The position numbers and the translations under genes are program-made. The notes below the pieces were generated by a model, which saw only the letters and a program-made list of their open reading frames with translations, was not told where the DNA came from and searched no databases. Below, piece by piece: positions 18,636-32,511 of a stretch of DNA of 43,973 bases. Within the stretch, counting starts at the first letter, position 1. Every line of letters begins with the position of its first letter. This DNA is from Thiotrichales bacterium (GTDB lineage Bacteria > Pseudomonadota > Gammaproteobacteria > HK1), in NCBI GenBank assembly GCA_026709935.1, contig JAPOSC010000046.1:1-43973 (forward strand), written 5' to 3'.

Positions 18636-18833
18636 GGATGTCGGGCCAGGGCCAAGACTCGGGCCAAGATTCCGGCCGGGGCTCCAGGAGCCATCCGTAG
18701 ACCGCGCTCCCGGGGGCGCATTGGGCAGGACTTGAATTCATCTGCAAGGATGAGACGGGCTCGAGGACTCCAACCCACCGGGAATTCTCATTGCCGTCGG
18801 GCGACGAAATCGCAGGACAGCCAAGAGGGACAG

Positions 18834-21248
18834 ATGCCAAGCGAGCCGATGATTCACGAGCTTTCGACGCCGCCCGACGCCGCGGCGCTGCGTCGATCCA
18901 TCGAGTACCACCTGCGCTATACCGCCGGGAAGACCCCGGCCGCCGCGACCCTGACGGACTGGCGGCGGGCGGTCTCGCGGGCGATTCGCGATCTCGTGAT
19001 CGCGCCGTGGTTCGAGACCACGCAACGGGTGTACGCGGAAGATCGGAAGAGGGTCTACTACCTGTCGATGGAGTTCCTGATCGGCCGGCTGCTCCAGGAT
19101 GCGGTGGCCAACCTGGGGCTCGAAGAACGGCTGCGGACAATCGTCGAGGGCTTCGGCATCGACTACGGCACGCTGCTCGCCGACGAGCCCGATGCCGCCC
19201 TCGGCAACGGCGGTCTCGGCCGTCTCGCCGCCTGCTTCCTGGACTCCATGTCCACCGTGGGTCTTGCCGCCTATGGCTACGGTATTCGCTATGACCACGG
19301 ACTGTTCCGGCAGTCCTTCGAGAACGGTTGGCAGGTGGAGGAAGCCGAGGACTGGCTGCGGCAAGTCCATCCCTGGGAATTCGAACGGCCGGAGGCCAGC
19401 CTTCCGGTGCACTTCGGCGGGTCCGTGCGCACCGACGGCGCCCGCACCACGTGGACACCGGCGGAAACCGTGCTGGCCGTCGGCTACGACACGCCGATTC
19501 CGGGCTGGCGCGGGCGCTGGGCCAACACGCTGCGCCTGTGGTCCGCGAAATCGGTTCGGGAATTCGAACTGGAACCCTTCAACCGGGGCGACTGGATGGC
19601 GGCGGCCGCCCCCTCGGTCCTGGCCGAGACCGTCAGCCGCGTGCTCTACCCCGACGACACCACCGAGCCGGGCCGGGAGCTGCGGCTGAAGCAGGAGTAC
19701 TTCCTCACCGCCGCATCGCTCGCCGACATCCTGCGGCGCTACCAGGCTCAGCACGACGATATCGCGAAGTTGCCGCGCGCCATCGCGATCCAGCTCAACG
19801 ACACCCACCCCGCCATCGCCTTCCCGGAGCTGATCCGCCTCCTCGTCGACAACCACGGACAGACGTTCGACGACGCTTTCGAGATCGCCCGCGCCTGCCT
19901 CCACTACACCAACCACACCCTGCTCCCGGAGGCGCTGGAACGCTGGCCGGTGCACCTGATGCACCGCGTCCTGCCCCGGCACATGGAGTTGATGGAGCGC
20001 ATCGACGCGCATCACGCCGCCTCGGTGCGGCGGCCTGACGGAGTCCGGGTGATCGACGTCGGCGAGGTACGCATGGGAGATCTGGCCTTCATCGGCGCGC
20101 GCCGCGTGAACGGCGTCTCCGCGCTGCACACCGAGCTGATGAAGCAGACCGTGTTCAAGGACCTGCATGCGCTGCATCCCGAACGCATCGTCAACCAGAC
20201 CAACGGGGTGACACCCCGGCGCTGGCTCTACGGCTGCAATCACCCGCTCCGCCACCTCCTGACGGAGGCCGTGGGGGAAGCCTGGGTGACCAATCTCGAA
20301 CGCCTGGAGGCACTGGCGCCGCTGGCCGACGACCCCGCCTTCCGCACGCGCTTCGCCGAGGCCAAGCATCGCAACAAGCGTCGACTGGCCGACTGGCTGG
20401 AGCGCGGCACCGGCGTCATCGTGGACCCCGAGGCCATGTTCGACATCCAGATCAAGCGGATCCACGAGTACAAGCGCCAGCTCATGAACATCCTCCACGC
20501 CGCCGCGCGGTGGAACGCCATCCGCCGTAATCCGGGGGCAGCTCATGCGCCGCGGGTCAAGATCTTCGCCGGCAAGGCGGCGCCGAGCTACGCCATGGCC
20601 AAGGCGGTGATCAAGCTGATCAACGACATCGGCGCCACCATCAACGCGGACCCACTCATGGCCGGGCGCCTGCAAGTGGTCTATCCGCCCGACTACAACG
20701 TCTCCATGGCGGAGGTTCTGATCCCCGCCGCCGATCTCTCCGAGCAGATCTCCACCGCCGGCATGGAAGCCTCGGGCACCGGCAACATGAAGCTGGCCAT
20801 GAACGGCGCCCTCACCGTCGGCACTCCGGACGGCGCCAACATCGAGATCGGCGAGGCGGTGGGGCAGGAGAACATCTTCACCTTCGGCCTGACCGCCGAG
20901 GAAGTGACCGCCCGCCGCGCCGCGGGCCATCGGCCCGAGCGCCACATCGCCGCCAGCCCGGCACTGGCCGAAGTGCTGGAGCAGATCGCGTCCGGGCGCT
21001 TCTCCCCCGACGATCCGGGCCGTCATGTCGCCCTGGTCGACAATCTGCGCCATCACGACTGGTTCATGGTGACCGCCGACTTTGCGGCCTACGTGAAGAT
21101 CCAGCGCCGCATCGATACGGCCTGGGGGCAGCGGGACGACTGGACCCGGCGGGCGGTGCTCAACACCGCCCGGATGGGCCGGTTCTCCTCTGACCGCACC
21201 ATCCGCGGCTATGCCCGCGACATCTGGGACGCCACGGCCGCGTTCTGA
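18834..21248 (+). CDS. glgP: Glycogen/maltodextrin phosphorylase (GT35)
   Basis: 804-aa PLP enzyme that releases glucose-1-phosphate from the ends of glycogen. The ATG at 18834 follows AAGAGGGA and is preferred over open frame upstream. Family landmarks are YYLSMEFLIGRLL, ALGNGGLGRLAACFLDSM, YGYGIRYDHG, IQLNDTHPAIA and RIHEYKRQLMN. The PLP-lysine motif is EASGTGNMKLAMNGALT (K653), followed by GTPDGANIEI. Length matches MalP/GlgP (about 800). The 198 bp before it contain only a loose repeat of GGGCCA-type units (18650-18680) and no gene. Confidence 0.96.
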   Translation: MPSEPMIHELSTPPDAAALRRSIEYHLRYTAGKTPAAATLTDWRRAVSRAIRDLVIAPWFETTQRVYAEDRKRVYYLSMEFLIGRLLQDAVANLGLEERLRTIVEGFGIDYGTLLADEPDAALGNGGLGRLAACFLDSMSTVGLAAYGYGIRYDHGLFRQSFENGWQVEEAEDWLRQVHPWEFERPEASLPVHFGGSVRTDGARTTWTPAETVLAVGYDTPIPGWRGRWANTLRLWSAKSVREFELEPFNRGDWMAAAAPSVLAETVSRVLYPDDTTEPGRELRLKQEYFLTAASLADILRRYQAQHDDIAKLPRAIAIQLNDTHPAIAFPELIRLLVDNHGQTFDDAFEIARACLHYTNHTLLPEALERWPVHLMHRVLPRHMELMERIDAHHAASVRRPDGVRVIDVGEVRMGDLAFIGARRVNGVSALHTELMKQTVFKDLHALHPERIVNQTNGVTPRRWLYGCNHPLRHLLTEAVGEAWVTNLERLEALAPLADDPAFRTRFAEAKHRNKRRLADWLERGTGVIVDPEAMFDIQIKRIHEYKRQLMNILHAAARWNAIRRNPGAAHAPRVKIFAGKAAPSYAMAKAVIKLINDIGATINADPLMAGRLQVVYPPDYNVSMAEVLIPAADLSEQISTAGMEASGTGNMKLAMNGALTVGTPDGANIEIGEAVGQENIFTFGLTAEEVTARRAAGHRPERHIAASPALAEVLEQIASGRFSPDDPGRHVALVDNLRHHDWFMVTADFAAYVKIQRRIDTAWGQRDDWTRRAVLNTARMGRFSSDRTIRGYARDIWDATAAF

Positions 21249-21255
21249 CCACGCC

Positions 21256-23451
21256 ATGGCCCGACCGCTCACCGACCCGAGCCAGGACGCCGCCCTTGCT
21301 CGCGGCGAGCACGGCGATCCCTTCGCCTATCTCGGCCCGCACCGCCTGACCGGAAAGAGCTGGGTGTTGCGCGTCTTCCGGCCCGGCGTGGATGCGGTCA
21401 CCATGCTGCCCGAACCCCGGCGCCGCCGGCCGGTAACGCTCCAGGCCATCGATCGGGACGGGCTGTTCGCCGCCCGACTGAGACGCGAGCCGGGCGCCTA
21501 TCGGCTGTCCGTGCGCAGAGAAGACCGCACCTGGGAGGAGGACGACCCCTTCCGCTTCGGCCCGGTGCTGGGCGAGATGGACGAGCACTTCCTCGGCGAG
21601 GGATCGCACCTGGAGCTCTGGAAGGTGCTCGGCGCCCATCCCCTGACCGCCGAGGGAGTCGCCGGCGTGCATTTCGCGGTGTGGGCGCCCAATGCGCGGC
21701 GGGTGTCGGTCGTTGGTGACTTCAACCACTGGGACGGGCGGCGCCACCCCATGCGCCGGCGCGGCTCGACCGGGGTGTGGGAGATCTTCCTGCCCGGGGT
21801 GTCGGAGGGCGCCCGCTACAAGTTCGAGATCCGGAACGCCGGCGGTGCCCTTCTGCCGCAGAAGGCCGATCCGATGGGCTTCGGGGCCGAGCGGCCACCG
21901 GCCACCGCGTCCGTGGTGCGGGATCTCGGCGGAAAGGACTGGGGAGACGACGCATGGCTGAGCCGACGCGAGACGGCAAACCGGCGTGATCGGCCCATCG
22001 CCGTCTACGAGGTCCACCTCGGCTCCTGGAAGCGGGCGGGCGACGGCGCCCGCCCCCTCGGCTACCGCGAGCTGGCCGAGGACCTGGTGCCCTACGTGCG
22101 CGACATGGGCTTCACCCACATCGAGATGATGCCGATCTCCGAGTACCCCTTCGACGGCTCCTGGGGCTATCAGCCCATCGGTCTCTACGCGCCGACCAGC
22201 CGCCACGGCGCCCTCGGCGAGTTCCGCGACTTCGTCGAGGCCTGCCACGCCGCGGAGCTCAGCCTCATTCTCGACTGGGTGCCCGGCCACTTCCCCACCG
22301 ACGCGCACGGCCTGGGGCGATTCGACGGCACCGCGCTCTACGAGCACGCCGATCCGCGCGAGGGCTTTCACCGGGACTGGAACACGCTGATCTTCAACTA
22401 CGGCCGTCACGAGGTGCGGAACTACCTGATCGCGAACGCCCTCTACTGGCTGAAGGAGCACCACGTCGACGGCCTGCGGGTCGATGCCGTCGCCTCGATG
22501 CTCTACCGGGACTACTCGCGCCCGGAGGGCGAATGGGTGCCGAACGTCGAAGGCGGACGCGAGAACCTGGAGGCGATCGCCTTCCTGAAGCGCCTGAACG
22601 AGGTGGTCTACGCCCGCTGCGAGGGCGTCGCCACCTTCGCCGAGGAATCGACCTCCTATCCCGGGATCTCCCGGCCCACCGACGCCGGCGGACTCGGATT
22701 CGGCTACAAGTGGAACATGGGCTGGATGAACGACACCCTGGACTATATGCGGCGCGAGCCCATCCACCGAAGACACCACCATCACCAGATGACCTTCGGC
22801 CTGCACTACGCCTTCTCGGAGAACTTCGTGCTGCCGCTGAGCCACGACGAGGTGGTGCACGGCAAGGGCTCGCTGCTCGCGAAGATGCCGGGCGACGAAG
22901 CGCAGCGCTTCGCCAACCTGCGCGCCTACCTCGCCTTCATGTGGGGTCATCCCGGGAAGAAGCTCCTGTTCATGGGCCAGGACTTCGCACAAGCCCGCGA
23001 ATGGAACCACGACGCGAGCCTCGACTGGCACCTGCTCGGCAACCCGAGCCACACCGGCATGCAGAGGCTCGTTCGCGACCTCAACCGCCTCTACCGGACC
23101 ACCCCGGCTCTCCACGAGCTGGACTGCGAGGCGGCGGGCTTCGAGTGGATCGAGGCCGACGCGGCCGAAGATTCCGTCTACGCCTGGCTGCGCCGAGGTC
23201 GCGGCGAGGCGGCACCGGTGGTCGTCGCGTGCAACTTCACGCCGGTGGAACGAGCGCCTCGGCGCCTCGGCGTGCCGGCGGCCGGACGCTGGGTCGAGCG
23301 CATCAACACCGATGCCGCCGAATACGGCGGCCAGGGTCGCAGCAACCTGGGCAGCGTCCGCAGCGATGCCATCGCGTCCCACGGCCGGCCGGATTCCGTG
23401 GAAATCCGCCTGCCCGGGCTCTCGACCGTGGTCTTCGAGCTGGAGCGGTAG
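21256..23451 (+). CDS. glgB: 1,4-alpha-glucan branching enzyme (GH13_9)
   Basis: 731-aa enzyme that introduces alpha-1,6 branches into nascent glycogen. It has an N-terminal family-specific domain (DPFAYLGPH), then CBM48 (VHFAVWAPNARRVSVVGDFN) and the GH13 barrel. Catalysis: GLRVDAVASMLY with nucleophile D410, FAEEST with acid E463, and LPLSHDEVVHGK. The start lies 7 bp after the glgP stop with no obvious Shine-Dalgarno, so translation is probably coupled to glgP. It is the last gene of the operon. Confidence 0.96.
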   Translation: MARPLTDPSQDAALARGEHGDPFAYLGPHRLTGKSWVLRVFRPGVDAVTMLPEPRRRRPVTLQAIDRDGLFAARLRREPGAYRLSVRREDRTWEEDDPFRFGPVLGEMDEHFLGEGSHLELWKVLGAHPLTAEGVAGVHFAVWAPNARRVSVVGDFNHWDGRRHPMRRRGSTGVWEIFLPGVSEGARYKFEIRNAGGALLPQKADPMGFGAERPPATASVVRDLGGKDWGDDAWLSRRETANRRDRPIAVYEVHLGSWKRAGDGARPLGYRELAEDLVPYVRDMGFTHIEMMPISEYPFDGSWGYQPIGLYAPTSRHGALGEFRDFVEACHAAELSLILDWVPGHFPTDAHGLGRFDGTALYEHADPREGFHRDWNTLIFNYGRHEVRNYLIANALYWLKEHHVDGLRVDAVASMLYRDYSRPEGEWVPNVEGGRENLEAIAFLKRLNEVVYARCEGVATFAEESTSYPGISRPTDAGGLGFGYKWNMGWMNDTLDYMRREPIHRRHHHHQMTFGLHYAFSENFVLPLSHDEVVHGKGSLLAKMPGDEAQRFANLRAYLAFMWGHPGKKLLFMGQDFAQAREWNHDASLDWHLLGNPSHTGMQRLVRDLNRLYRTTPALHELDCEAAGFEWIEADAAEDSVYAWLRRGRGEAAPVVVACNFTPVERAPRRLGVPAAGRWVERINTDAAEYGGQGRSNLGSVRSDAIASHGRPDSVEIRLPGLSTVVFELER

Positions 23452-23699
23452 CGCCGTGGCGCGGCGCCCGCAGTCAGCTCCGCGCGGGATTCACGCCGGA
23501 CCTTCACCCGCACTTCTCCCGGTGCCGGGTGCCAAAACCGCAGACCCATGGAGAATCTCTGGCCGCAGCAGGAGCCAGTGAGAAATGAAGCTAGGTCCGC
23601 TATCCGGTTGCCGCTTCGTCCCCGGCACCGGCCTCCCCTGGAGAGGAATGTTCGCGGGAGCGGACAACCCGCCGTCTCGCCCGCCGGATCAAATCGTCT
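23452..23699. other. glgB-sulfite reductase intergenic region
   Basis: 248 bp between tail-to-tail genes. I see no gene and no strong terminator. GTGAGAAATG at 23578-23587 matches the left arm of the 59-bp palindromic element and is preceded by GGAGCCA, but there is no right arm within 100 bp. It may be a solitary half element or chance. Confidence 0.5.
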
Positions 23700-24953
23700 T
23701 CAGGTCATGTGGGTCGGGGCGCCGATGTTCGGAGTCGCGAGTCCCAGCCCCGCAAGCCGCTCCCACAGCGCGTGCAGGTCGTCGAGCGCGACGTCGGCGA
23801 ACAGGAGGTTCCGGTTGTGGCTGGCTCGAATCAGCCCGAAGCTGTACCGATCCGCCAGATCGGCGACCTCCCGCATCTGTTCGGCCGTCATGTCTCCGGG
23901 CGGAACGTCCGGGGCCTTGAGCGAGACGAAGGCGGCCCGATAGCCGGAATGGCGGTGGGCGACGGTATTGAAGCGCACCCACCGGGCGAAGGCGGGGTCC
24001 GACGCCCTGGCCGCCTCGAAGCGCCCGACCTCGACGAGCGGCCGGTAGGGCGGTGGCCTGAAGTGCGAACGCAGCGCTTCGAGCTCCTCGGGATCGAAGG
24101 ACGCGACATGCCTCCGGGTCACCCGCCATTCGGCCTCCACGCGCCAGCGAAACTCCTCGATCCCCAGCGCGTCGACCAGGATCTCGAGGCGCGCCTTGCA
24201 CTTGTTGTCCCGGCGCCCTGCCGGGTTGCAGACGCGCATGATCGCCTGGAGGTAGGAGAGGAGGTGACGGTCGGGAAGGAACGTGCGCAGTACCTTGCCG
24301 ATGACCGGCGTGCGTCCGAGCCCGCCGCCGACCCGGACCTCGAAGCCGCACTGCCCGTCGGCGTTCGCGATGAGCCGAAGGCCGATGTCGTGCGTCTCGA
24401 TGACGGCATGAGCGCGCGGCGCTCCGGTCACCGCGATCCTGAACTTGCGGGGCGGGCAGGCGAACTCCGGCTGCAGGGTCGACCACTGGCGCAGCAGCTC
24501 GCAGTAGGGGCGGGGATCGGCGATCTCGTCCGGCGCGATGCCGGCCAGATGATCGCAGGTGATGTTGCATATGGTGATGTTGCCTGGGAAGTTGCCGCGG
24601 GTCTGAATGGCATGCATGTCCACCGAGGCGAGATCGGCGAGGAGGTCCGGCACCCGTTCCGGGGCGGGCCAGTCGAACCGGATGTTCTGGCGGGTAGTGA
24701 AATGGCCGAAGCCGCGGTCATAGCGCACGGCGACCGAGGCCAGCATCCGCAGTTGCGTCGACGACAGGAGGCCACCGGGGATCGCCACCCTGAGCATCGG
24801 GGCGAGCCGCTGGAGGTGGAGCCCGTTCGTCAGCCGCAGAGGCTTGAACTGCTCCTCGTCGAACTCTCCGGTGAGATAGCGCGAGGTCTGCTCGTGAAAG
24901 TCGGCCCCCCGCTCCTGCCCGCACTGCCGGTCGAAAGTGTCGCACTGGTACAT
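23700..24953 (-). pseudogene. C-terminally truncated sulfite reductase hemoprotein (CysI-like)
   Basis: 417 aa that match the first three quarters of proteobacterial ferredoxin/NADPH-type sulfite reductase: EEQFKPLRLTNGLHLQRLAP, RYDRGFGHFTTRQNIRF, VDMHAIQTRGN and PPRKFRIAVTGA. The frame ends just after LATPNIG, exactly where relatives continue into the cysteine motifs that hold the 4Fe-4S/siroheme centre, so the essential ligands are absent. No other frame in the 250 bp beyond encodes them. The usual GNCIRN segment is replaced by GNFPGNITICN, which loses a conserved arginine. The gene is therefore probably inactive. It is still led by an intact cysteine attenuator. A non-catalytic siroheme-binding role cannot be excluded. 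Confidence 0.75.
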
Positions 24954-24979
24954 GGTCGTGTGTCCCCGATTCCGAAATG

Positions 24980-25013
24980 AAAAAAGCCGCAGTCCGGAGT
25001 CCCGGACGGCGGC
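24980..25013 (-). terminator. Attenuator terminator of the cysteine leader
   Basis: On the minus strand GCCGC-C-GTCCGG, loop GACT, CCGGAC-T-GCGGC is followed by six T. It sits only 27 bp before the sulfite reductase start, so it must be an attenuator and not a gene-end terminator. Its 5' arm plus loop (TCCGGGACTCC, 25006-24996) is the exact complement of leader segment 25092-25082, which provides the competing antiterminator. Confidence 0.85.
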
Positions 25014-25049
25014 CTTCTGGTATCGGGTGACGACTGGATCAGGCGGGTA

Positions 25050-25136
25050 TCAGCGCACGGTCCTCCCGGCAGAAAGCCCCCTCCGGGACTCCTGCGTACA
25101 GGTGCAACAACAGATGATGGGCGCAAACGGTTTCAT
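25050..25136 (-). CDS. Cysteine-rich leader peptide (attenuator)
   Basis: A 28-codon frame from ATG at 25136 to TGA at 25050 begins MKPFAPIICCCTCT, with cysteines at 9, 10, 11 and 13. It lies between a promoter-like pair (25203-25175) and a rho-independent terminator (25013-24980), upstream of a sulfite reductase gene. This is the layout of classical ribosome-mediated attenuation (trp/his/leu leaders), here with cysteine codons and a cysteine-synthesis gene. A ribosome stalled at the UGU UGU UGC run would leave GGAGUCCCGGA (codons 15-19) free to pair with the terminator's 5' arm. The ribosome site is weak (GATCCCG). The peptide itself need have no other function. Confidence 0.82.
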   Translation of the reverse strand: MKPFAPIICCCTCTQESRRGLSAGRTVR

Positions 25137-25174
25137 CGGGATCGATAACGTCGGGCCTGAAGTCGACGCGGCGG

Positions 25175-25203
25175 AGTGTCCTCCGCGGAATTCGGGTTGT
25201 CAA
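25175..25203 (-). promoter_or_regulatory. Putative promoter of the cysteine leader
   Basis: TTGACA (25203-25198) and GACACT (25180-25175) are 17 bp apart on the minus strand, placing transcription start about 30 nt before the leader ATG. A palindrome GCGGAG-GACA-CTCCGC (25186-25171) is centred on the -10 box and could be an operator. The -35 is consensus, the -10 is weak. Confidence 0.5.
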
Positions 25204-25355
25204 TCGCCTCGCTTCGGTATTCCGCCGCAACGTCACAAGGATTCCGGCCAGAATAATTTTCCGTTCAGCTTGCTTGCACCCCATGCCTGAAAGGGGATTG
25301 GAGTCGGTGAGGTGGAAAGTTGATTTCGGTCGGGGCATCAGGGCGGGAAGACGCA

Positions 25356-26120
25356 TCAGACCGGAACCGACGGATAGCGATCGGAGCGGGTGCCCGGAAT
25401 CGGCCGGTTGCGGCCGGCGTGGTACGTAAACACCGCGGAGAGCTTCACCTCGCCGGAGCAGTTCTTGCCCGCCGCGTGGAAGAGCCGACAGTGGAAGAAG
25501 AGCGCATCACCCGCTTCGAGTTCCACAATGGCCGCGGTATCGATGAGCGCGCGGTTCTCGTCGAGCTCCGGGCGCAGGAACAGGTGCCGATCGAAGCGTC
25601 CCCGGTCGAGGTGCAGCCGGTGACTGCCGGGAATCACCCGCAGGGCGCCGTTCTCCTCGCGTTCGGGGCCGAGCGCGAGCCACACCGAGACGAGTTCCGG
25701 GGCGTCGAACGACCAGTACCGGATGTCCTGATGCCACGCGGTCGAGCTGCTGAACCCGGGATGTTTGGTCATGATGCAGTTGTGGTGGCACTGGGACATT
25801 TCGACGCGGTCCTCGCGCAGGACGCTGCGCAGCGTCGAGCCGAGTTCCGGCGCGGTCGCCCACCGGCGGAAGACCGAGCCGCGGGAGTAGGCGTGCAGCA
25901 ACCGCCGCGGGGTATTGCCGCCGGCCGCGTCCCGGCTCGCGGGCGAACCCGGATAGCCCACGTCCGTCTCGAATTCCGCGGGACCCTGCAACGGACGAAG
26001 GGCTCGCCGCACCGTGGCCCGCATCTCCTCGACGCCCGGACGATCGACGAGACCGCGGACGACCAGATAACCGTCGCGCTCGAACGTGTCCGGCGAAAGA
26101 TCGTGCATCGCGTCGACCAT
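25356..26120 (-). CDS. Phytanoyl-CoA dioxygenase (PhyH) family protein
   Basis: 254-aa Fe(II)/2-oxoglutarate oxygenase. The family start FERDGYLVVRGLVD is near residue 13. The iron ligands are H130 and D132 in WHQDIRYW and the distal H215 in CRLFHAAGKN. VIPGSH and GDALFFH are also typical. The ATG at 26120 follows GAGGGG. Members hydroxylate varied small molecules, including ectoine and secondary metabolites, so the substrate is unknown. Nothing nearby makes ectoine. It lies about 125 bp after gnd on the same strand and may be independently expressed. Confidence 0.85.
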   Translation of the reverse strand: MVDAMHDLSPDTFERDGYLVVRGLVDRPGVEEMRATVRRALRPLQGPAEFETDVGYPGSPASRDAAGGNTPRRLLHAYSRGSVFRRWATAPELGSTLRSVLREDRVEMSQCHHNCIMTKHPGFSSSTAWHQDIRYWSFDAPELVSVWLALGPEREENGALRVIPGSHRLHLDRGRFDRHLFLRPELDENRALIDTAAIVELEAGDALFFHCRLFHAAGKNCSGEVKLSAVFTYHAGRNRPIPGTRSDRYPSVPV

Positions 26121-26245
26121 GGAACGCCCCTCCTCGTTGCGCACGAACCGTGCCCGCACCGCCCGCGCAGTCTACGCCGATCGCGAACCTCGACAATCCC
26201 GCTGCGCGGCCGGCGACGTGCAACCGGGGGGCTCGATTCGGCCGA

Positions 26246-27880
26246 CTACGCGTTGTACGCGGTCGACACCGTCTCGCCGCCCCGTCCTGTCCAGTCGGTG
26301 TGGAAGAACTCGCCGCGGGGGCGGTCGATCCGCTCGTAGGTGTGGGCGCCGAAGTAGTCGCGCTGGGCCTGGAGCAGGTTTGCGGGCAGACGGGCGCGGC
26401 GGTAGCCGTCGTACCAGGCCAGTGCGCTGGCGAACGCGGGTACCGGCACGCCCCGAAGCACGGCGGTGGCGACGACCCGGCGCCAGGCGTCCTGCGCGTT
26501 CGCCATCGCGTCGCGGAAGTACGGCGCCAGCAGCAGGTTCGCAAGATCGGGGGTCTCGTCGTAAGCGGCCTTGATGCGGTCGAGAAACGCGGCGCGGATG
26601 ATGCATCCGCCGCGCCACATGAGCGCAATAGCGCCGAAATCGAACCGCCAGTCGTACTCGGCCGAGGCCATCGACAGGAGCTGGAAGCCCTGGGCGTAGG
26701 AGCAGATCTTCGATGCATAGAGAGCCTGGCGCACATCGTCTGCGAACGAGGCCACATCGGCGTCTTCGGCGCCGGGATCACGCCCCGCCATCGCTTCTCC
26801 GGCACAGGCACTCGGGGTCGCAGCGCGGGCGTTTGGAGCCTCGGTAAGGGCACTCGGGGCTACGGCGAGGGCGTCTGTCGCGAATGATGGAGCGCCACCT
26901 TCGGCCCCTCTCCCCGTTGCCGCTTCCGGCCCCGGCAGGACTTGCGAGGCCGCGACTCGCTCGTCCTTGAGCGCGGAGAGCGCCCGCGCGAACACCGCCT
27001 CGGTGATCGCGGTGACCGGTGCACCGAGCATCAGGGAGTCGATACCGGTCCACTTGCCGGTCCCCTTTTGCCCCGCCGCATCGAGAATCACATCGACCAG
27101 AGGGCGGCCCGTTGCGTCATCGACGCGCGCCAGGATCCCGGCCGTGATTTCGACGAGATAGCTCGACAGCGCCCCCTCGTTCCAGCGCGCGAAAATCTCG
27201 CTCATGGCGGCAGGCTCGATACCACCCACATCCATGAGCAGCGAGTACGCCTCCGCGATCATCTGCATGTCGCCGTACTCGATGCCGTTGTGCACCATCT
27301 TCACGTAGTGGCCGGCACCGTCGGGGCCGATCCAGTCGCAGCACGGGGTGCCGTCTTCCACCTTGGCGGCGATCGCCTTGAAGATCGGCTCCAGCATCGG
27401 CCATGCGTCCGCGTTGCCGCCTGGCATGATGCTCGGCCCGAGCAGAGCGCCTTCCTCGCCCCCGGAAACGCCGGTGCCAACGTAGAGGATTCCGGCCTCC
27501 CGCAGTGCGTGCGTGCGCCTCGTCGTGTCCCGGTAGTTCGAGTTGCCGCCGTCGATGAGCACGTCTCCCGGCTCGAGCAACGGGGTCAGGGTGTCGATCA
27601 CTCGGTCCACCGCGCGGCCCGCCTGGACCATGAGCATCACCCGCCGCGGCTTCGCGAGCTTCGAGACCAGCTCCTGCGGCGACCAGGCGCCGACGATGGC
27701 CCAGCCGGCGGCGCGGCCGGCGAGGAACGCATCGACCTTCGACGTGGTCCGGTTGTACACCGCCACCGTGTACCCGCGGCTCGCGATGTTGAGCACCAGG
27801 TTCTCGCCCATGACCGCGAGCCCGATGACCCCGATGTCCGCGGCCTCCGCACAGTGTGGCGACAGATCTCCGCCACTCAC
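26246..27880 (-). CDS. gnd: 6-phosphogluconate dehydrogenase (decarboxylating)
   Basis: 544-aa NADP enzyme that converts 6-phosphogluconate to ribulose-5-phosphate and CO2. The dinucleotide fold is IGVIGLAVMGENLVLN. GVSGGEEGALLGPSIMPGG, KMVHNGIEYGDMQMI and QKGTGKWT are the substrate and catalytic segments. It starts at a GTG (27880) six bases after GAGGGG. It is about 60-70 residues longer than usual: residues 317-376 are an Ala/Pro-rich insert between VLPGP and DVRQALYASKI, containing a 42-bp tandem repeat. The insert sits in a surface loop of the helical domain in known structures, so activity may be kept. It follows glk by 85 bp. Confidence 0.94.
   Translation of the reverse strand: MSGGDLSPHCAEAADIGVIGLAVMGENLVLNIASRGYTVAVYNRTTSKVDAFLAGRAAGWAIVGAWSPQELVSKLAKPRRVMLMVQAGRAVDRVIDTLTPLLEPGDVLIDGGNSNYRDTTRRTHALREAGILYVGTGVSGGEEGALLGPSIMPGGNADAWPMLEPIFKAIAAKVEDGTPCCDWIGPDGAGHYVKMVHNGIEYGDMQMIAEAYSLLMDVGGIEPAAMSEIFARWNEGALSSYLVEITAGILARVDDATGRPLVDVILDAAGQKGTGKWTGIDSLMLGAPVTAITEAVFARALSALKDERVAASQVLPGPEAATGRGAEGGAPSFATDALAVAPSALTEAPNARAATPSACAGEAMAGRDPGAEDADVASFADDVRQALYASKICSYAQGFQLLSMASAEYDWRFDFGAIALMWRGGCIIRAAFLDRIKAAYDETPDLANLLLAPYFRDAMANAQDAWRRVVATAVLRGVPVPAFASALAWYDGYRRARLPANLLQAQRDYFGAHTYERIDRPRGEFFHTDWTGRGGETVSTAYNA
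26808..26891 (-). repeat. 42-bp tandem repeat inside gnd
   Basis: Two 42-bp units (from 26808 and 26850) both begin GCACTCGGGG on the plus strand and encode related 14-residue Ala/Pro-rich units (ALAVAPSALTEAPN and ARAATPSACAGEAM). The frame is kept. Confidence 0.7.
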
Positions 27881-27965
27881 AATGAGCCCCTCGGCACGAC
27901 CTTATTCATATCAATGTCGATATCTGCATCACGCGTTCCGAATCGTCTCGTGGCGGTCGGTTTCC

Positions 27966-28970
27966 TCATGATCGGCGCGCCATCTGGTGTTCAAGCAGAT
28001 GCTCGACTCCGACGAGTCCCGGATGCGGTCGGGTCACGACATGGACAGGGATCGCGCTCAGCCAGGAGTGGAAACGGCCCTTGGCGCGGAACCGTTCGAG
28101 GAATCGCCGGGCGTCGAAGCGCTCGCCCCAGCCCGGGACGATGCCGCCGGCGATGAACACGCCGGCGCGGGCGCCGAGGGTGAGGGCGAGGTCGCCCGCC
28201 ACCGACCCGAGGAAGCCGGTGAAGACCGCGATGGTCTCCTGCGCGATCGGGTCACGGCCGGCGAAGGCATCCGCCGCGATCTCCGCCGCGGTCTTGTCGC
28301 GCTCGCACCGCTTGCCGTCGATCGCGGCGATTGCCTTCCAGGTGGCCTCGATTCCCGGTCCGGAGAGCGCGCGTTCGGCGGAGGCGTGCCCGAACCGCTC
28401 CGCAAGGGTGGTGACGATCGCCCATTCCCGCGCGTCGTGCGCGGCGAGCGTCCGGTGTCCGCCCTCCCCTTCGATACCGGCGAATCCTCCCGACGCGACC
28501 GGCACGAGCCCGGAAACGCCGAGGCCGGTTCCCGGCGCGAGCACCGCGCGGGCCGCATCGTCATCCGGGGTGCCTCCATCCGGACTGCCTTCAGTCGGAC
28601 TGCCCGCGGCAATAGTTCGCAAATCCTCGCGGCCGAGCGACGGAAGCGCCCAGGCAATGGCCGCGACATCGTTGACGAGCAGGCAGCGCCGCACGTTGCA
28701 GTCACGCTCGATGGCACAGGCATCGAGCACCCAGTCGAGGTTCGTGACCTCTGCCCTTCCTCCGGTCACCGGGCCCGCCGCCGCGATCCCGATGGCATCG
28801 AGCTCTCCGTGTATCCCGGTCTGCGCGCGCCATTGATCGAGCGCGTCCTCGAAGCTCCGGGCACCGTCCGATTCGATGACCTGCACCGGAACCGGCTGCT
28901 CCCTCTCGTCCGTCAGCAGCCGGAACCGGATGTGGGTCCCCCCGAGGTCGACGGCGAGGAGACGCTTCAT
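27966..28970 (-). CDS. glk: Glucokinase
   Basis: 334-aa ATP-dependent glucokinase of the E. coli Glk type, making glucose-6-phosphate from free glucose in the cytoplasm. The phosphate loop is AVDLGGTHIRFRL. NDVAAIAWALP, LAPGTGLGVSGLV and GIEGEGGHRTL are the usual sites, and IAGGIVPGWGERF lies near the end. The ATG at 28970 overlaps the otsA stop (ATGA), showing tight coupling. A short Gly/Pro/Asp-rich repeat-like insert (GSPTEGSPDGGTPDDD) sits before the GTGLG loop. Its context suggests it recycles glucose from the GH15 enzyme or from glycogen debranching. Confidence 0.92.
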   Translation of the reverse strand: MKRLLAVDLGGTHIRFRLLTDEREQPVPVQVIESDGARSFEDALDQWRAQTGIHGELDAIGIAAAGPVTGGRAEVTNLDWVLDACAIERDCNVRRCLLVNDVAAIAWALPSLGREDLRTIAAGSPTEGSPDGGTPDDDAARAVLAPGTGLGVSGLVPVASGGFAGIEGEGGHRTLAAHDAREWAIVTTLAERFGHASAERALSGPGIEATWKAIAAIDGKRCERDKTAAEIAADAFAGRDPIAQETIAVFTGFLGSVAGDLALTLGARAGVFIAGGIVPGWGERFDARRFLERFRAKGRFHSWLSAIPVHVVTRPHPGLVGVEHLLEHQMARRS

Positions 28971-30664
28971 CGCACCGCGTAGAGTCGTTCGAGGAACGAT
29001 TCGCGCCAGGCCATCACGTCGTCGCGACGCACGCCCTCCACCAGCGTCCGCCACCGCTCCTTGCGCTCCGCGAGCGGCATGTTGAGCGCCCTCTGAAGCG
29101 CGTCGGCGACACCCCCGACGTCGTAGGGATTGACGATGACGGCGCCGTCGGCGTGGCGTGCCGCCCCGGCGAAGCGCGACAGCACCAGCACCCCCGGGTC
29201 CCGCGGCGACTGGGCCGCAACGTACTCCTTCGCCACCAGGTTCATCCCGTCGCGCAGCGGAGTGACGAGCCCGATCCGCGCGATGCGGAACAGCCCGGCG
29301 AGGGCGCGGCGGCTGAAGCTCCGGTTGATGTAGCGCAGCGGCGTCCAGTCGAACTCGGAGTACTCGGAGTTGATGCGCCCCGACAGCGTCTCGAGCTCGT
29401 GGCGGATGTCGACGTAGTCCTGCACGTCGGAACGGGACCGCGGCGCGATCTGGATATAGCTCGCCCGCCCCCGGTTCTCGGGATAGTCGGCCAGCAGGCG
29501 CTCGAAGGCGCGAAAACGCTCCGGGAGTCCCTTGCTGTAGTCGAGACGGTCCACCCCCAGGATGGCCTGCCGATCGTTGAGCACCCGACGCATGCGGGCC
29601 GCGTGCTCGCCCGCCTCCCGGGTGGTCGCGTACCGCGCGAACGCCCCGGCGTCGATGCCGATCGGGAATGCGGCGACGACGACCTCCCGGCCGTATGCCT
29701 GCACCCGGTCGTGGCCGAGGATCCTGCCTCCCGCCTCCTTCACGACGTAGTCGAGGAAACAGTCCCGGTCGCCTTCGGTCTGGAAACCGATCACGTCGTA
29801 GGAGAAGAGCGCCCGGACAAGCACGTCGTGGGTGGGGAGCGCGGTGAGCACCTCCCGGGCTGGAAAGGGGATGTGGAGGAAGAATCCCATGGGACTGGTG
29901 CACCCCATCCGCCTCAGCTCCTCGCCGCAGGCCATGAGGTGATAGTCGTGGACCCAGACATGGTCCCCCGCCTTGAGCAGGGGCAGCAGCGCGTGCGCGA
30001 AGCGCTGGTTGACCTTGAGATAGCCCTGGTAGTGCTCGCGATCGAACGTCGCGAGGTCGAGGCGGTAGTGGAACAGCGGCCACAGGGTCGAGTTCGCGAA
30101 GCCGTTGTAGTAGTCCTCGTAGTCGTCGGAGGTCAGGTCGAGGGTCGCGACGGTCAGCGCGCTGTGGTGCTGGAGCTTCGGGGTCCTGCGCTCCCGTTCG
30201 GAAATCTCCCCGCTCCATCCGAACCACACGCCTCCGCTGCGGCGAAGCGCGTCGAGCAACGCCACCGCAAGTCCTCCGGCCCGGTCCGGATGCCTGACCG
30301 ACGCCACCCGGTTGGAAACAACTACTAAGCGAGCCCGCGTAGCGGGCGGTGTCTGGCGAGCCCGCGTAGCGAGCGGCAGTTCCGGGCGAGCTCGCGTAGC
30401 GAGCGGCAGTTCCGGGCGAGCTCGCGTAGCGAGCGGGGCCGGTCGAGCCTGCGAAGCGGGCGGTGCCGGTCGAGTTCGCTTGGCGGACGGCACTTCCGGT
30501 TCAGCTCGCGCCGCAGACGGCGGTTCGGAGCGATCTTGCGAAGCGGCTGAAGTCCGACGTGTCGGTTGTCCGGACGAATCGCGCGCCTTCACCGCCGCGC
30601 CGGCGCTCGGGCCGGCACTGGAAGTCCGCCGTGCTGATTCCCCGGACGAATCGCGCTGGCTCAT
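28967..30664 (-). CDS. otsA: Trehalose-6-phosphate synthase (GT20)
   Basis: 565-aa enzyme that joins UDP-glucose and glucose-6-phosphate. The catalytic part begins about residue 112 with RLVVVSNRVASVRHPDRAGG and continues WVHDYHLM, GFFLHIPFPA and GVDRLDYSKGLPERFRA. The C-terminal nucleotide site is TPLRDGMNLVAKEYVAAQ. The ATG at 30664 has GGGAGGA upstream and overlaps the stop of the GH15 gene. The first 111 residues are an abnormal low-complexity extension (Arg/Ala/Pro/Ser) with nine- to ten-residue repeats such as RPELPLATRA, encoded by 27/30-bp units. Typical OtsA starts at the RLVVVSNR segment, so the extension is an added repeat tract. Confidence 0.94.
   Translation of the reverse strand: MSQRDSSGESARRTSSAGPSAGAAVKARDSSGQPTRRTSAASQDRSEPPSAARAEPEVPSAKRTRPAPPASQARPAPLATRARPELPLATRARPELPLATRARQTPPATRARLVVVSNRVASVRHPDRAGGLAVALLDALRRSGGVWFGWSGEISERERRTPKLQHHSALTVATLDLTSDDYEDYYNGFANSTLWPLFHYRLDLATFDREHYQGYLKVNQRFAHALLPLLKAGDHVWVHDYHLMACGEELRRMGCTSPMGFFLHIPFPAREVLTALPTHDVLVRALFSYDVIGFQTEGDRDCFLDYVVKEAGGRILGHDRVQAYGREVVVAAFPIGIDAGAFARYATTREAGEHAARMRRVLNDRQAILGVDRLDYSKGLPERFRAFERLLADYPENRGRASYIQIAPRSRSDVQDYVDIRHELETLSGRINSEYSEFDWTPLRYINRSFSRRALAGLFRIARIGLVTPLRDGMNLVAKEYVAAQSPRDPGVLVLSRFAGAARHADGAVIVNPYDVGGVADALQRALNMPLAERKERWRTLVEGVRRDDVMAWRESFLERLYAVR
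30329..30540 (-). repeat. 27/30-bp degenerate tandem repeats in the otsA 5' region
   Basis: About seven units. 30356-30385 and 30386-30415 differ at one base and are 30 bp; the flanking units are 27 or 30 bp and more diverged. Consensus on the plus strand: GCGAGCTCGCGTAGCGAGCG plus CAGTTCCGG. All unit lengths are multiples of three, so the otsA frame is kept. GCGGTTCGGAGC (30520-30531) also occurs reverse-complemented in the glgA array (11758-11769). Confidence 0.85.
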
Positions 30665-32511
30665 GCGTTGTCCTCCCACGACTCGCTCAGACGGGTCGCT
30701 GCGTTGATGATGCCGACGAGCGAGTAGGTCTGCGGATAGTTCCCCCAGAGTTCTCCGCTCGAAGGATCGATGTCCTCGGAGAGAAGGCCGAGCGGGTTCC
30801 GCGCATCGAGCATCGCATCGAAGATCTCGCGTGCCTCTTCCCGGCGCCCGAGCCGCGCCAGGGCGTCGATGTACCAGAACGTGCAGATGTTGAACGCATT
30901 GTGCGGCGTGCCGAAGTCGTCGGCGGTCGCGTACCGGAAGAGATGATTGCCACGGCGAAGTTCCTGCTCGATACGAACCACCGTGGACCGGAACCGGGCA
31001 TCGCACGAGTCGATGAACCCGACTTCGGCCATCAGCAGCAGACTCGCGTCCAGCCCGTCGCCTTCGAAGCTCTCGGCGAAGGCGCCCAAATGGGGGTTCC
31101 AGGCTCGTTCCAGGATGGTCGCGCGTACCGTCGTCGCCCGCTCGCGCCACCGCGCGCACCGCTCGGCCAAGCCGAGATGGGCCGCGATCTTCGCGAGCCG
31201 ATCACATGCGGCCCAGCACATCAGGCTCGAAGACGAGTGCACCCGGGCCATGGTGCGCAGCTCCCACATGCCGGCATCGGGCTGATCGTGCACGGCGAAG
31301 GCGCGCTCGCCGATTCTTTCGAGGCGCTCGAACTCGACGCGACCCGGGCGCGCCAGGAGCCGGGTGTCGAAGAACGCCTGGGAGGCCGCGAGCACCACGT
31401 TGCCGTAGACATCGTGCTGGATGTGCTCGAACGCCTGGTTCCCGGCCCGCACCGGTCCCATGCCGCGATAGCCCGCAAGCGACGTGACGGTGCGCTCGGT
31501 CAGGCGGCGTTCGAGACCGATCCCGAACACCGGTTGCAGGTGCCCGTCGGAGTTCTCCACCTCGTTGCCGCTGATGAGGTTGTTCAGGTAGCGAAGATAA
31601 TCCTCCATCGTCTCGACCTCGGCGAGACTGTTGAGCGCCCGCACCACGAAGAACGAATCCCTCAGCCAGCAATAGCGATAGTCCCAGTTCCGCTCGGTAT
31701 CCGCGGCCTCCGGGATGCTCGTGGTCATCGCCGCGATGATCGCGCCGGTCTCCTCGAACGCGCAGAGCTTCAGGGTGATGGCGGCGCGGGAGACCGCTTC
31801 CTGCCATTCGAACGGCAGCGCCAGACGCCGGGTCCACCGCCGCCAGTAGGTTTCGGTCTTCTCCTCGAACTCGCGCGCGGTCGGCTCGACGCCGCCGGCG
31901 AGGGTCTCGTCGGGGCCGAGGAGCAGGCTCACCGGCTCTTCGAGCAGGAACGGCGTCTCGTCGAGCACGTAGGTGATCGGGGCGTTGGTGTTGAGCCGCA
32001 GCGCCTGGCGGGTGTGCGCGTAGCGAATGTGGTTGGAGCCGTAGGTGATGTCCGGGGCGCGGGCGCCGTAGTTGAAACGCGGGCGCACCCGAACGCGGAT
32101 GCGCGGCGAGCCGCTGATGGCGCGGACCCTGCGAACCAGCGTGGTGGGCCGGAACGTGCGCCCGCGCGTTTGGAAGCGCGGGGCGAAGTCGGTCACGACG
32201 ATGCGGTTCCCCGCGCCGTCCGCCATCCGTGTTTCCAGAATCGCGGTGTTCGGACGATAGCTCTGCGTGACCTCCACCGCGCCGAGAAGATCGATGGCGA
32301 AGAAGCCCGCCCCGGCGTCCACATCGGCCCCCGAGCCTGTCTCCGAGGGATCGGGCCGGGAACGATGGCGTCGGGGAGCGTCGTCGATCAGGCGGCAGAA
32401 CACCGGGTCCGCGTCGAACCGCGGCAGGCAGCACCACACGATGCGCGCATTCTCGTCGACGAGAGCGCCGTAGGTGCAGTTGCCGATGACTCCGAGGTTC
32501 AGCGAGGCCAT
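30661..32511 (-). CDS. Glycoside hydrolase family 15 protein (glucoamylase/trehalase-like)
   Basis: 616-aa GH15 enzyme with the N-terminal beta domain (LGVIGNCTYGALVDENARIVW, CCLPRFDADPVFCRLID) and the (alpha/alpha)6 barrel: NWDYRYCWLRDSFF near the middle and EDIDPSSGELWGNYPQTYS near the end, carrying the expected catalytic glutamates. It has no signal peptide, so it acts in the cytoplasm. GH15 proteins of this form include trehalases and glucoamylases. Its place between otsB and otsA suggests trehalose hydrolysis or glucose release for glk. The start at 32511 has GAGGAGGA upstream. A small Arg/Pro/Gly insert follows residue 45. Confidence 0.88.
   Translation of the reverse strand: MASLNLGVIGNCTYGALVDENARIVWCCLPRFDADPVFCRLIDDAPRRHRSRPDPSETGSGADVDAGAGFFAIDLLGAVEVTQSYRPNTAILETRMADGAGNRIVVTDFAPRFQTRGRTFRPTTLVRRVRAISGSPRIRVRVRPRFNYGARAPDITYGSNHIRYAHTRQALRLNTNAPITYVLDETPFLLEEPVSLLLGPDETLAGGVEPTAREFEEKTETYWRRWTRRLALPFEWQEAVSRAAITLKLCAFEETGAIIAAMTTSIPEAADTERNWDYRYCWLRDSFFVVRALNSLAEVETMEDYLRYLNNLISGNEVENSDGHLQPVFGIGLERRLTERTVTSLAGYRGMGPVRAGNQAFEHIQHDVYGNVVLAASQAFFDTRLLARPGRVEFERLERIGERAFAVHDQPDAGMWELRTMARVHSSSSLMCWAACDRLAKIAAHLGLAERCARWRERATTVRATILERAWNPHLGAFAESFEGDGLDASLLLMAEVGFIDSCDARFRSTVVRIEQELRRGNHLFRYATADDFGTPHNAFNICTFWYIDALARLGRREEAREIFDAMLDARNPLGLLSEDIDPSSGELWGNYPQTYSLVGIINAATRLSESWEDNA

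Follow-up and report, generated by a model that had tools for sequence, protein, structure and literature searches.

Among the described systems closest to the leader reported here is uORFC-8-2, a Cys-codon leader located before cysS in Rhodobacterales, which was found computationally and for which the authors, in the accessible part of their paper, propose ribosome-mediated attenuation by Cys-tRNA (PMC8632094). According to the same part of the source, it is alphaproteobacterial, and its first stem contains the two Cys codons, which are usually codons 14-15 of the frame. In actinobacteria, Seliverstov et al. 2005 described Cys-run frames before cys operons; these are presented, as far as the available text goes, without conserved terminator hairpins, and Rho was suggested (PMC1262725). 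In a further source, PMC2965389, the accessible part mentions cysteine in the reference list only.

Our leader precedes a cysI-type nitrite/sulfite reductase gene (cysB in a sister genus) in Gammaproteobacteria. With uORFC-8-2, as described in the accessible text, it shares a short frame with tandem Cys codons, stems, a terminator-like U run and the proteobacterial host, and both are computational findings (PMC8632094). However, its Cys codons occupy positions 9, 10, 11 and 13 and lie upstream of a hairpin that we call the protector. Since it precedes another gene and has its Cys codons at other positions and in another place relative to the stems, it is not a member of uORFC-8-2. In contrast to the actinobacterial leaders, as far as these are described in PMC1262725, it has an intrinsic terminator with an antiterminator and is not one of them. 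A search of the open-access literature returned, among the matches listed, no proteobacterial Cys-codon leader ahead of cysB or of a sulfite reductase gene. The impression of the first-pass annotation of this DNA that a terminator-type leader is undescribed for a proteobacterial reductase gene agrees with these listings as regards the gene, but such a leader is already known before cysS in Rhodobacterales (PMC8632094, accessible part). The likeness to the trp and his attenuators of E. coli lies in the stall codons and in the mutually exclusive antiterminator and terminator, the difference in the amino acid and the target. Cys-run frames of mycobacteria are reportedly leaderless, cysteine-responsive attenuators, in the wording of a title by Canestrari et al. 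2020.

Frame, terminator and complementary segment, i.e., every element named in the first-pass annotation, are found on the minus strand of the window, which denotes the whole stretch of 43,973 nucleotides analysed (Table 1). The 28-codon frame with its four cysteines was confirmed. Of the 549 short frames counted in the window (8-60 aa, a single frame for each stop), no other has four or more Cys within five residues. A clear Shine-Dalgarno site ahead of the leader ATG is absent, which is a point against ribosome-mediated attenuation. The -10 box of the predicted promoter reads GATACT in three relatives, L018, L019 and L020 (TTGACA-18-GATACT), compared to GACACT in the window, which has 3/6 consensus matches. 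A simple consensus scanner reported neither promoter nor terminator in the leader region, because of these few matches in the -10 box and one mismatch in the terminator stem. The region around the leader (18732-31159) contains frames whose translations resemble glycogen phosphorylase, glycogen branching enzyme, phosphogluconate dehydrogenase, glucokinase and trehalose-phosphate synthase. The gene upstream of the leader is phyH in the window and a 3-dehydroquinate synthase gene in L002 (OY282353.1, an uncultured gammaproteobacterium). These differing neighbourhoods, where compared, suggest that the leader belongs to cysI and not to the place.

Table 1. Features of the cysI leader region in the window and of the second Cys-codon leader.
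Feature	Position	Strand	Remarks
Phytanoyl-CoA dioxygenase-type gene (phyH)	25356-26159		upstream neighbour of leader
Predicted promoter, whole	25174..25203	minus	read off the sequence; equal spacing in L018, L019, L020
Predicted promoter, -35 TTGACA	25203-25198	minus	read off the sequence
Predicted promoter, -10 GACACT	25179-25174	minus	18-nt spacer from -35
Leader frame	25136-25050	minus	28 codons, MKPFAPIICCCTCTQESRRGLSAGRTVR, then stop; ATG, Cys10, Cys11 and Cys13 constant in 4/4
Regulatory Cys codons 9, 10, 11	25112-25104	minus	codon 9 is CGT (Arg) in 2/4 genomes
Regulatory Cys codon 13	25100-25098	minus	constant in 4/4 genomes
Segment 2/protector hairpin	25069..25095 (25095-25085 with 25080-25069)	minus	-14.5 to -17.2 kcal/mol in 4/4
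Antiterminator, consensus part	25000..25088 (25088-25070, segment 2, with 25019-25000, segment 3)	minus	18 pairs
Intrinsic terminator	25013-24986, six-U tract 24985-24980	minus	-23.4 to -28.6 kcal/mol
cysI-type nitrite/sulfite reductase gene	23700..24953	minus	417 aa, truncated; Pfam PF01077 and PF03460
cysB-type leader and gene	L030:1498-2620 (G013:C98)		Cys-codon leader, terminator, LysR regulator

Segment 3 of the leader RNA has two alternative partners, segment 2, which gives the antiterminator, and segment 4, which gives the terminator with its U tract. The exact complementarity of 25092-25082 to 25006-24996 was recognized in the first-pass annotation as an 11-nt match. It is correct, but the antiterminator is about twice as long: pairing runs on to 25070 and 25019, so that in the window 21-22 bp are formed, extending beyond the consensus part to 25092 with 24996. 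Across the four genomes, 70 of 72 antiterminator cells are paired, double-sided changes do not occur, and the duplex energies range from -32 to -46 kcal/mol. The duplex of leader and terminator arm was matched by 0, 1, 1 and 0 of 1000 dinucleotide shuffles in the four leaders (0 in the window). The terminator, which had been called strong and placed just before the reductase, is confirmed with 47/48 cells paired; the distance to the reductase ATG (24953) is 26 nt rather than 27 bp. A single terminator pair changed on both sides, which was equalled by 113/500 shuffles. In the protector all 40 cells are paired across the four genomes, three pairs vary on one side, and none on both. As there is almost no covariation, the terminator's one double change being within the range of shuffles, the structure rests on complementarity and conservation. 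Three properties of attenuators of the trp/his type are present: a frame rich in codons of the pathway's amino acid before the gene (in the four genomes with the leader), an intrinsic terminator between frame and gene, and an antiterminator which excludes the terminator and yet is available on a ribosome stall.

The leader unit recurs before cysI in three of the four other genomes of the genus, G003, G004 and G005, each with a full-length reductase; G002, the fourth, has no cysI match. The leader peptides read MARHAHVIRCCTCMRESRMGLSAGRTLR in G003, MASYARFICCCICMRKSRRGLSAKEDCALRPA in G004, whose upstream letters are identical to those of L002, and MTPYARFIRCCICMRNSRMGLSAGGDCALIPA in G005. In these three genomes the Cys run, both complementary segments and the terminator are kept, and the lack of conservation that had been named as evidence against attenuation did not occur. 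Stalling had been proposed at UGU-UGU-UGC. Codons 10, 11 and 13 are indeed the constant regulatory codons in 4/4 genomes, but codon 9 is variable (Table 1), and the C-terminus of the peptide is frameshifted between genomes. Mean pairwise p-distances are 0.096 for the Cys core, 0.117 for segment 2 and 0.106 for segment 3, compared to 0.302 for the first seven codons, and the synonymous differences of cysI among the four genomes amount to 0.25-0.38. Cys codons and RNA segments are thus better conserved than synonymous sites.

Judged from the sequences, the leader is likely to be a ribosome-mediated transcription attenuator which reads cysteinyl-tRNA, with transcription of the cysI-type gene predicted mainly at low cysteine; the evidence comprises four sequences of one genus. 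When Cys-tRNA is ample, the ribosome would pass through segment 2 and leave at the stop codon. The protector would then close behind it, segment 3 would be left for segment 4, and transcription would terminate. When Cys-tRNA is scarce, the ribosome would stall at Cys11 or Cys13 with its front edge over the 5' strand of the protector; during the stall the remaining segment 2 would capture the emerging segment 3, and the polymerase would read through into cysI. In the layout of the E. coli trp leader, the anti-antiterminator is the 1:2 pairing. Here, in contrast, this role would fall to the self-hairpin of segment 2, which lies on the 3' side of the Cys codons, and the leader frame extends far beyond segment 2. 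The first-pass annotation regarded terminator and antiterminator as sufficient. Both are present, but the protector is needed as a third structure for the logic, since, without a ribosome, equilibrium folding of the transcript grown to segment 3 favours the antiterminator as well.

Folding with ribosome positions was calibrated on trpL and hisL of E. coli as yardsticks. The segment-3 procedure recovers the trp leader, with 0.67 at the second Trp codon and 0.06 both free and at the stop, a contrast matched by 0/200 shuffles; the his leader is recovered partly, values being high also at codons ahead of the His run. When transcripts ending with segment 3 were folded with a ribosome whose A site holds a Cys codon, 2:3 pairing had P 0.85-1.00 in all four cysI leaders; with the ribosome on codons 17-23 it was 0.00. 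At equilibrium, the antiterminator stands at 0.84 in the four cysI leaders at this stage, whether free, at every Cys codon up to 13, or at the stop. The folding with and without ribosome suggested earlier therefore agrees in that a stalled ribosome leaves the 2:3 pairing, but the equilibrium is the same without a ribosome. In shuffles of the window alone, its stalled-versus-free contrast was equalled by 82/200. For the full leader, the equilibrium terminator probability is 0.99-1.00 in every ribosome state in L018-L020, stalling being without effect. For the window the corresponding values are 0.27 if no ribosome is present, 0.12, 0.63, 0.41 and 1.00 for a ribosome at Cys9, Cys10, Cys11 and Cys13, respectively, and 0.05 for one at the stop codon. 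The values of the window thus run opposite to the needs of a pure equilibrium switch.

As equilibrium fails to separate stalled from ribosome-free states in the cysI leaders, unlike in the cysB leader of G013 described below, the switch would rest on the kinetic effect of the protector. With the ribosome at Cys13, part of the protector's 5' strand is covered, and the most stable local structure that segment 2 can form is weakened from -16.7...-20.8 to -7.3...-11.4 kcal/mol. The weakening is smaller at Cys11 (to -9.0...-15.2 kcal/mol), and there is little effect at Cys9/10 (-14.5...-20.7 kcal/mol). Stalls at Cys9 or Cys10 barely touch the protector, which by the kinetic argument would then be free to form. 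In a heuristic path search, the direct change from protector to antiterminator had a computed barrier of 17-18 kcal/mol, and that from antiterminator to terminator one of 13-22 kcal/mol. With barriers of this height, whichever of protector and antiterminator forms first should persist during transcription.

The gene downstream is of cysI type, as the first-pass annotation had claimed with its sulfite reductase, but in this genome its C-terminal Fe-S/siroheme part is missing. The protein stops just before CCPGxDFC and also lacks SGCMNACGHHH in comparison to relatives of 552 aa; the intact reductases of L002, L019 and L020, about 550 aa long, contain both CCPGLDFC and SGCMNACGHHH. An insertion is present at the site where intact relatives read GNCIRNITCDH. 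The window's genome, G000, matches only residues 1-412 of a 552-aa query, and a separate C-terminal cysI match was not found in it at E <= 1e-100. The DUF934 gene, which follows cysI in L002, is missing as a neighbour of the window's cysI. Since the truncation precedes the Fe-S/siroheme motifs, the switch was probably inherited intact ahead of a decaying gene; an assembly error is the alternative.

It is somewhat probable that in the window's genome the leader is a relic, functionless before a dead reductase, a reading which is compatible with attenuation in the lineage. Apart from the truncated reductase and the missing DUF934 gene, it is favoured by dN/dS values of 0.32-0.39 for the window's cysI within the genus, compared to 0.21-0.27 among intact copies, and by G002, which belongs to the same genus and has no cysI match. 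On the other hand, the leader retains its promoter-like boxes, its frame, both alternative hairpins of segment 2 and the terminator, and the 417 codons left of the reductase form an open frame. Further genes of the pathway were surveyed in the genus. The N-terminal CysE domain PF06426 was found in none of its five genomes (G000, G002-G005), but eight of the 14 control genomes lack this domain as well. Matches to PF01507 (CysH/CysD) reach 33-39 bits in the genus, which is above the cut-off, compared to 164-198 bits in other genera; in G002 no PF01507 match was found. Both observations were weighed against the attenuator reading.

Within the loci surveyed here, attenuation of the cysI-type gene, as proposed for the genus, appears to be confined to a small lineage. 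The family search covered 17 genomes, the order search the identical 17, and a cysI match occurred in nine. The leader is absent from the five cysI genes in other genera of the family. Our covariance model R1 places its four source leaders, by construction, at E < 1e-58, and next to them only G013 comes near within the family. A protein search yielded, among the matches listed, more than 60 cysI relatives at 80-96% identity. The search of other gammaproteobacterial cysI upstream regions for a Cys-run frame plus terminator, proposed with the first-pass annotation, gave 0/62, and the element is thus not general; six of these regions have a frame with a Cys pair and are terminator-less. The 62 regions, four of them shorter than 400 nt, were taken from 71 rows after dropping the own genome, three loci already compared and five partial ones. 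The scanner applied to them missed the interrupted U tract of L019 and may miss similar ones. A widened version, which finds L019, detected the leader in 0/19 other cysI loci (14 outside the family and five of its other genera; L017, a C-terminal fragment, was omitted). It also gave 0/27 (two repeats) in a phylum-wide cysI search, where these loci are a part only, 110/299 genomes having had matches.

Class-wide, the covariance search gave matches in 48/369 genomes at E <= 0.01, the best outside the own genome at E 2.5e-7, and 29 of the loci (L046-L074) went through a script-based screen. In L051, L055 and L056 there are Cys-rich stretches ahead of a terminator, which were rejected as other frames of long coding frames; L072 was rejected too, its ICCC run lying inside a 563-aa frame. 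An Rfam search of the window reported no family at gathering score. A weak match to BcKCsr2 (17.7 of 40 bits) spans the leader and was rejected, its clear part being the terminator. The consensus of that family, RF02883 (Burkholderia sRNA 2), itself has an AUG start and in-frame UUU-UUU Phe codons well ahead of a terminator, so that BcKCsr2 may be an attenuator leader itself and not a trans-acting sRNA.

The match in G013 (contig C98, locus L030; E = 2.8e-9) lies in a sister genus, in a genome without a cysI match. A leader peptide MKRDRCPPCVCICPRMKLRAACAGRTEGECL is followed by a terminator and by the gene of a LysR regulator. The family that this regulator matches best is CysB (NF009326), with 368 bits, under the cut-off of 436 bits. 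With Cys9, Cys11 or Cys13 in the A site, the antiterminator probability is 0.61-0.83, compared to 0.01 free and 0.01 at the stop, and this ribosome-position profile was matched by 0/200 shuffles. In clarity, the folding profile of L030 equals or exceeds that of the E. coli trp leader; the plain duplex test is not significant (314/1000 shuffles). The leader ATG stands 6 nt past a -10-like CATACT, and the transcript may accordingly be leaderless. The model score at this place is 37.7 bits, and a terminator-only match on the other strand reaches 21.3 bits. Similarity of the peptide to those of the window, L018, L019 and L020 was reached by 11, 152, 55 and 64 of 2000 shuffles, respectively, and common ancestry of the cysB and cysI leaders is uncertain.

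The cysB leader with this profile is represented by one genome, G013. By eye, ten more CysB-like loci of the family (L076-L085) revealed no Cys-run leader. In the class, 123/369 genomes matched in the cysB survey; 70 places were taken, with G153 and G265 skipped, and L229, which is without a start, reduced them to 69. Among these 69 other gammaproteobacterial cysB upstream regions, flags were raised in 1/30 and 1/39, both for a Cys pair far from a plausible leader. Scanning of 17 cysS and five cysE upstream regions of the family, where the frame used for L271 was probably incorrect, flagged 1/22, an unconvincing 59-aa frame overlapping the gene.

Two further readings of the cysI leader have to be weighed. 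The ribosome might be stalled by the nascent peptide, with a conserved CC-x-C-xxx-S-R-x-G-L-S-A sequence acting as a metal, redox or arrest sensor and the RNA switch unchanged. The constancy of GLSA and SR in 4/4 peptides and the dispensable Cys9 speak for such a sensor. Nevertheless, we consider it unlikely: the protector/antiterminator strand codes for the constant residues past Cys13, so that constraint on the RNA can account for them, the frameshifts affect the C-terminus of the peptide, a ribosome stalled at Cys13 would be placed so as to open the protector, and the cysB leader has its Cys codons without SRxGLSA. Similarly improbable is a constitutive terminator behind a Cys-rich frame that senses nothing, the RNA merely lowering cysI expression. 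This would agree with equilibrium folding, which gives no useful separation of ribosome states in the cysI leaders. It is opposed by a Cys core that is conserved as well as the hairpins and better than synonymous sites, by antiterminator complementarity beyond shuffles in four genomes, and by the existence of a second Cys leader before cysB. A longer conserved protein in place of the leader peptide and a terminator belonging to the upstream gene were both rejected, the first because already the first seven codons are poorly conserved, the second because promoter-like boxes stand in between.

In model gammaproteobacteria, cysteine synthesis is under the control of the activator CysB together with its inducer and is not known to be regulated by attenuation. 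The principle of a Cys-codon leader is known, before cysS and in actinobacteria; new are the targets, cysI and cysB, and the gammaproteobacterial lineage. With Cys-codon attenuators before cysI in one genus and before cysB in another, the family may have taken up cysteine-tRNA attenuation for sulfur assimilation, which we put forward tentatively and as a possibility rather than an expectation. The two attenuators would show a logic of the trp type recruited for sulfur assimilation, in a three-hairpin design in which the amino-acid codons closely precede an antiterminator strand that can fold on itself. The window itself would present an attenuator that seems to outlast its gene. If the reading of the second leader is true, translation of a short peptide before cysB, the gene of the master activator, would set the activator level for the whole cysteine regulon.
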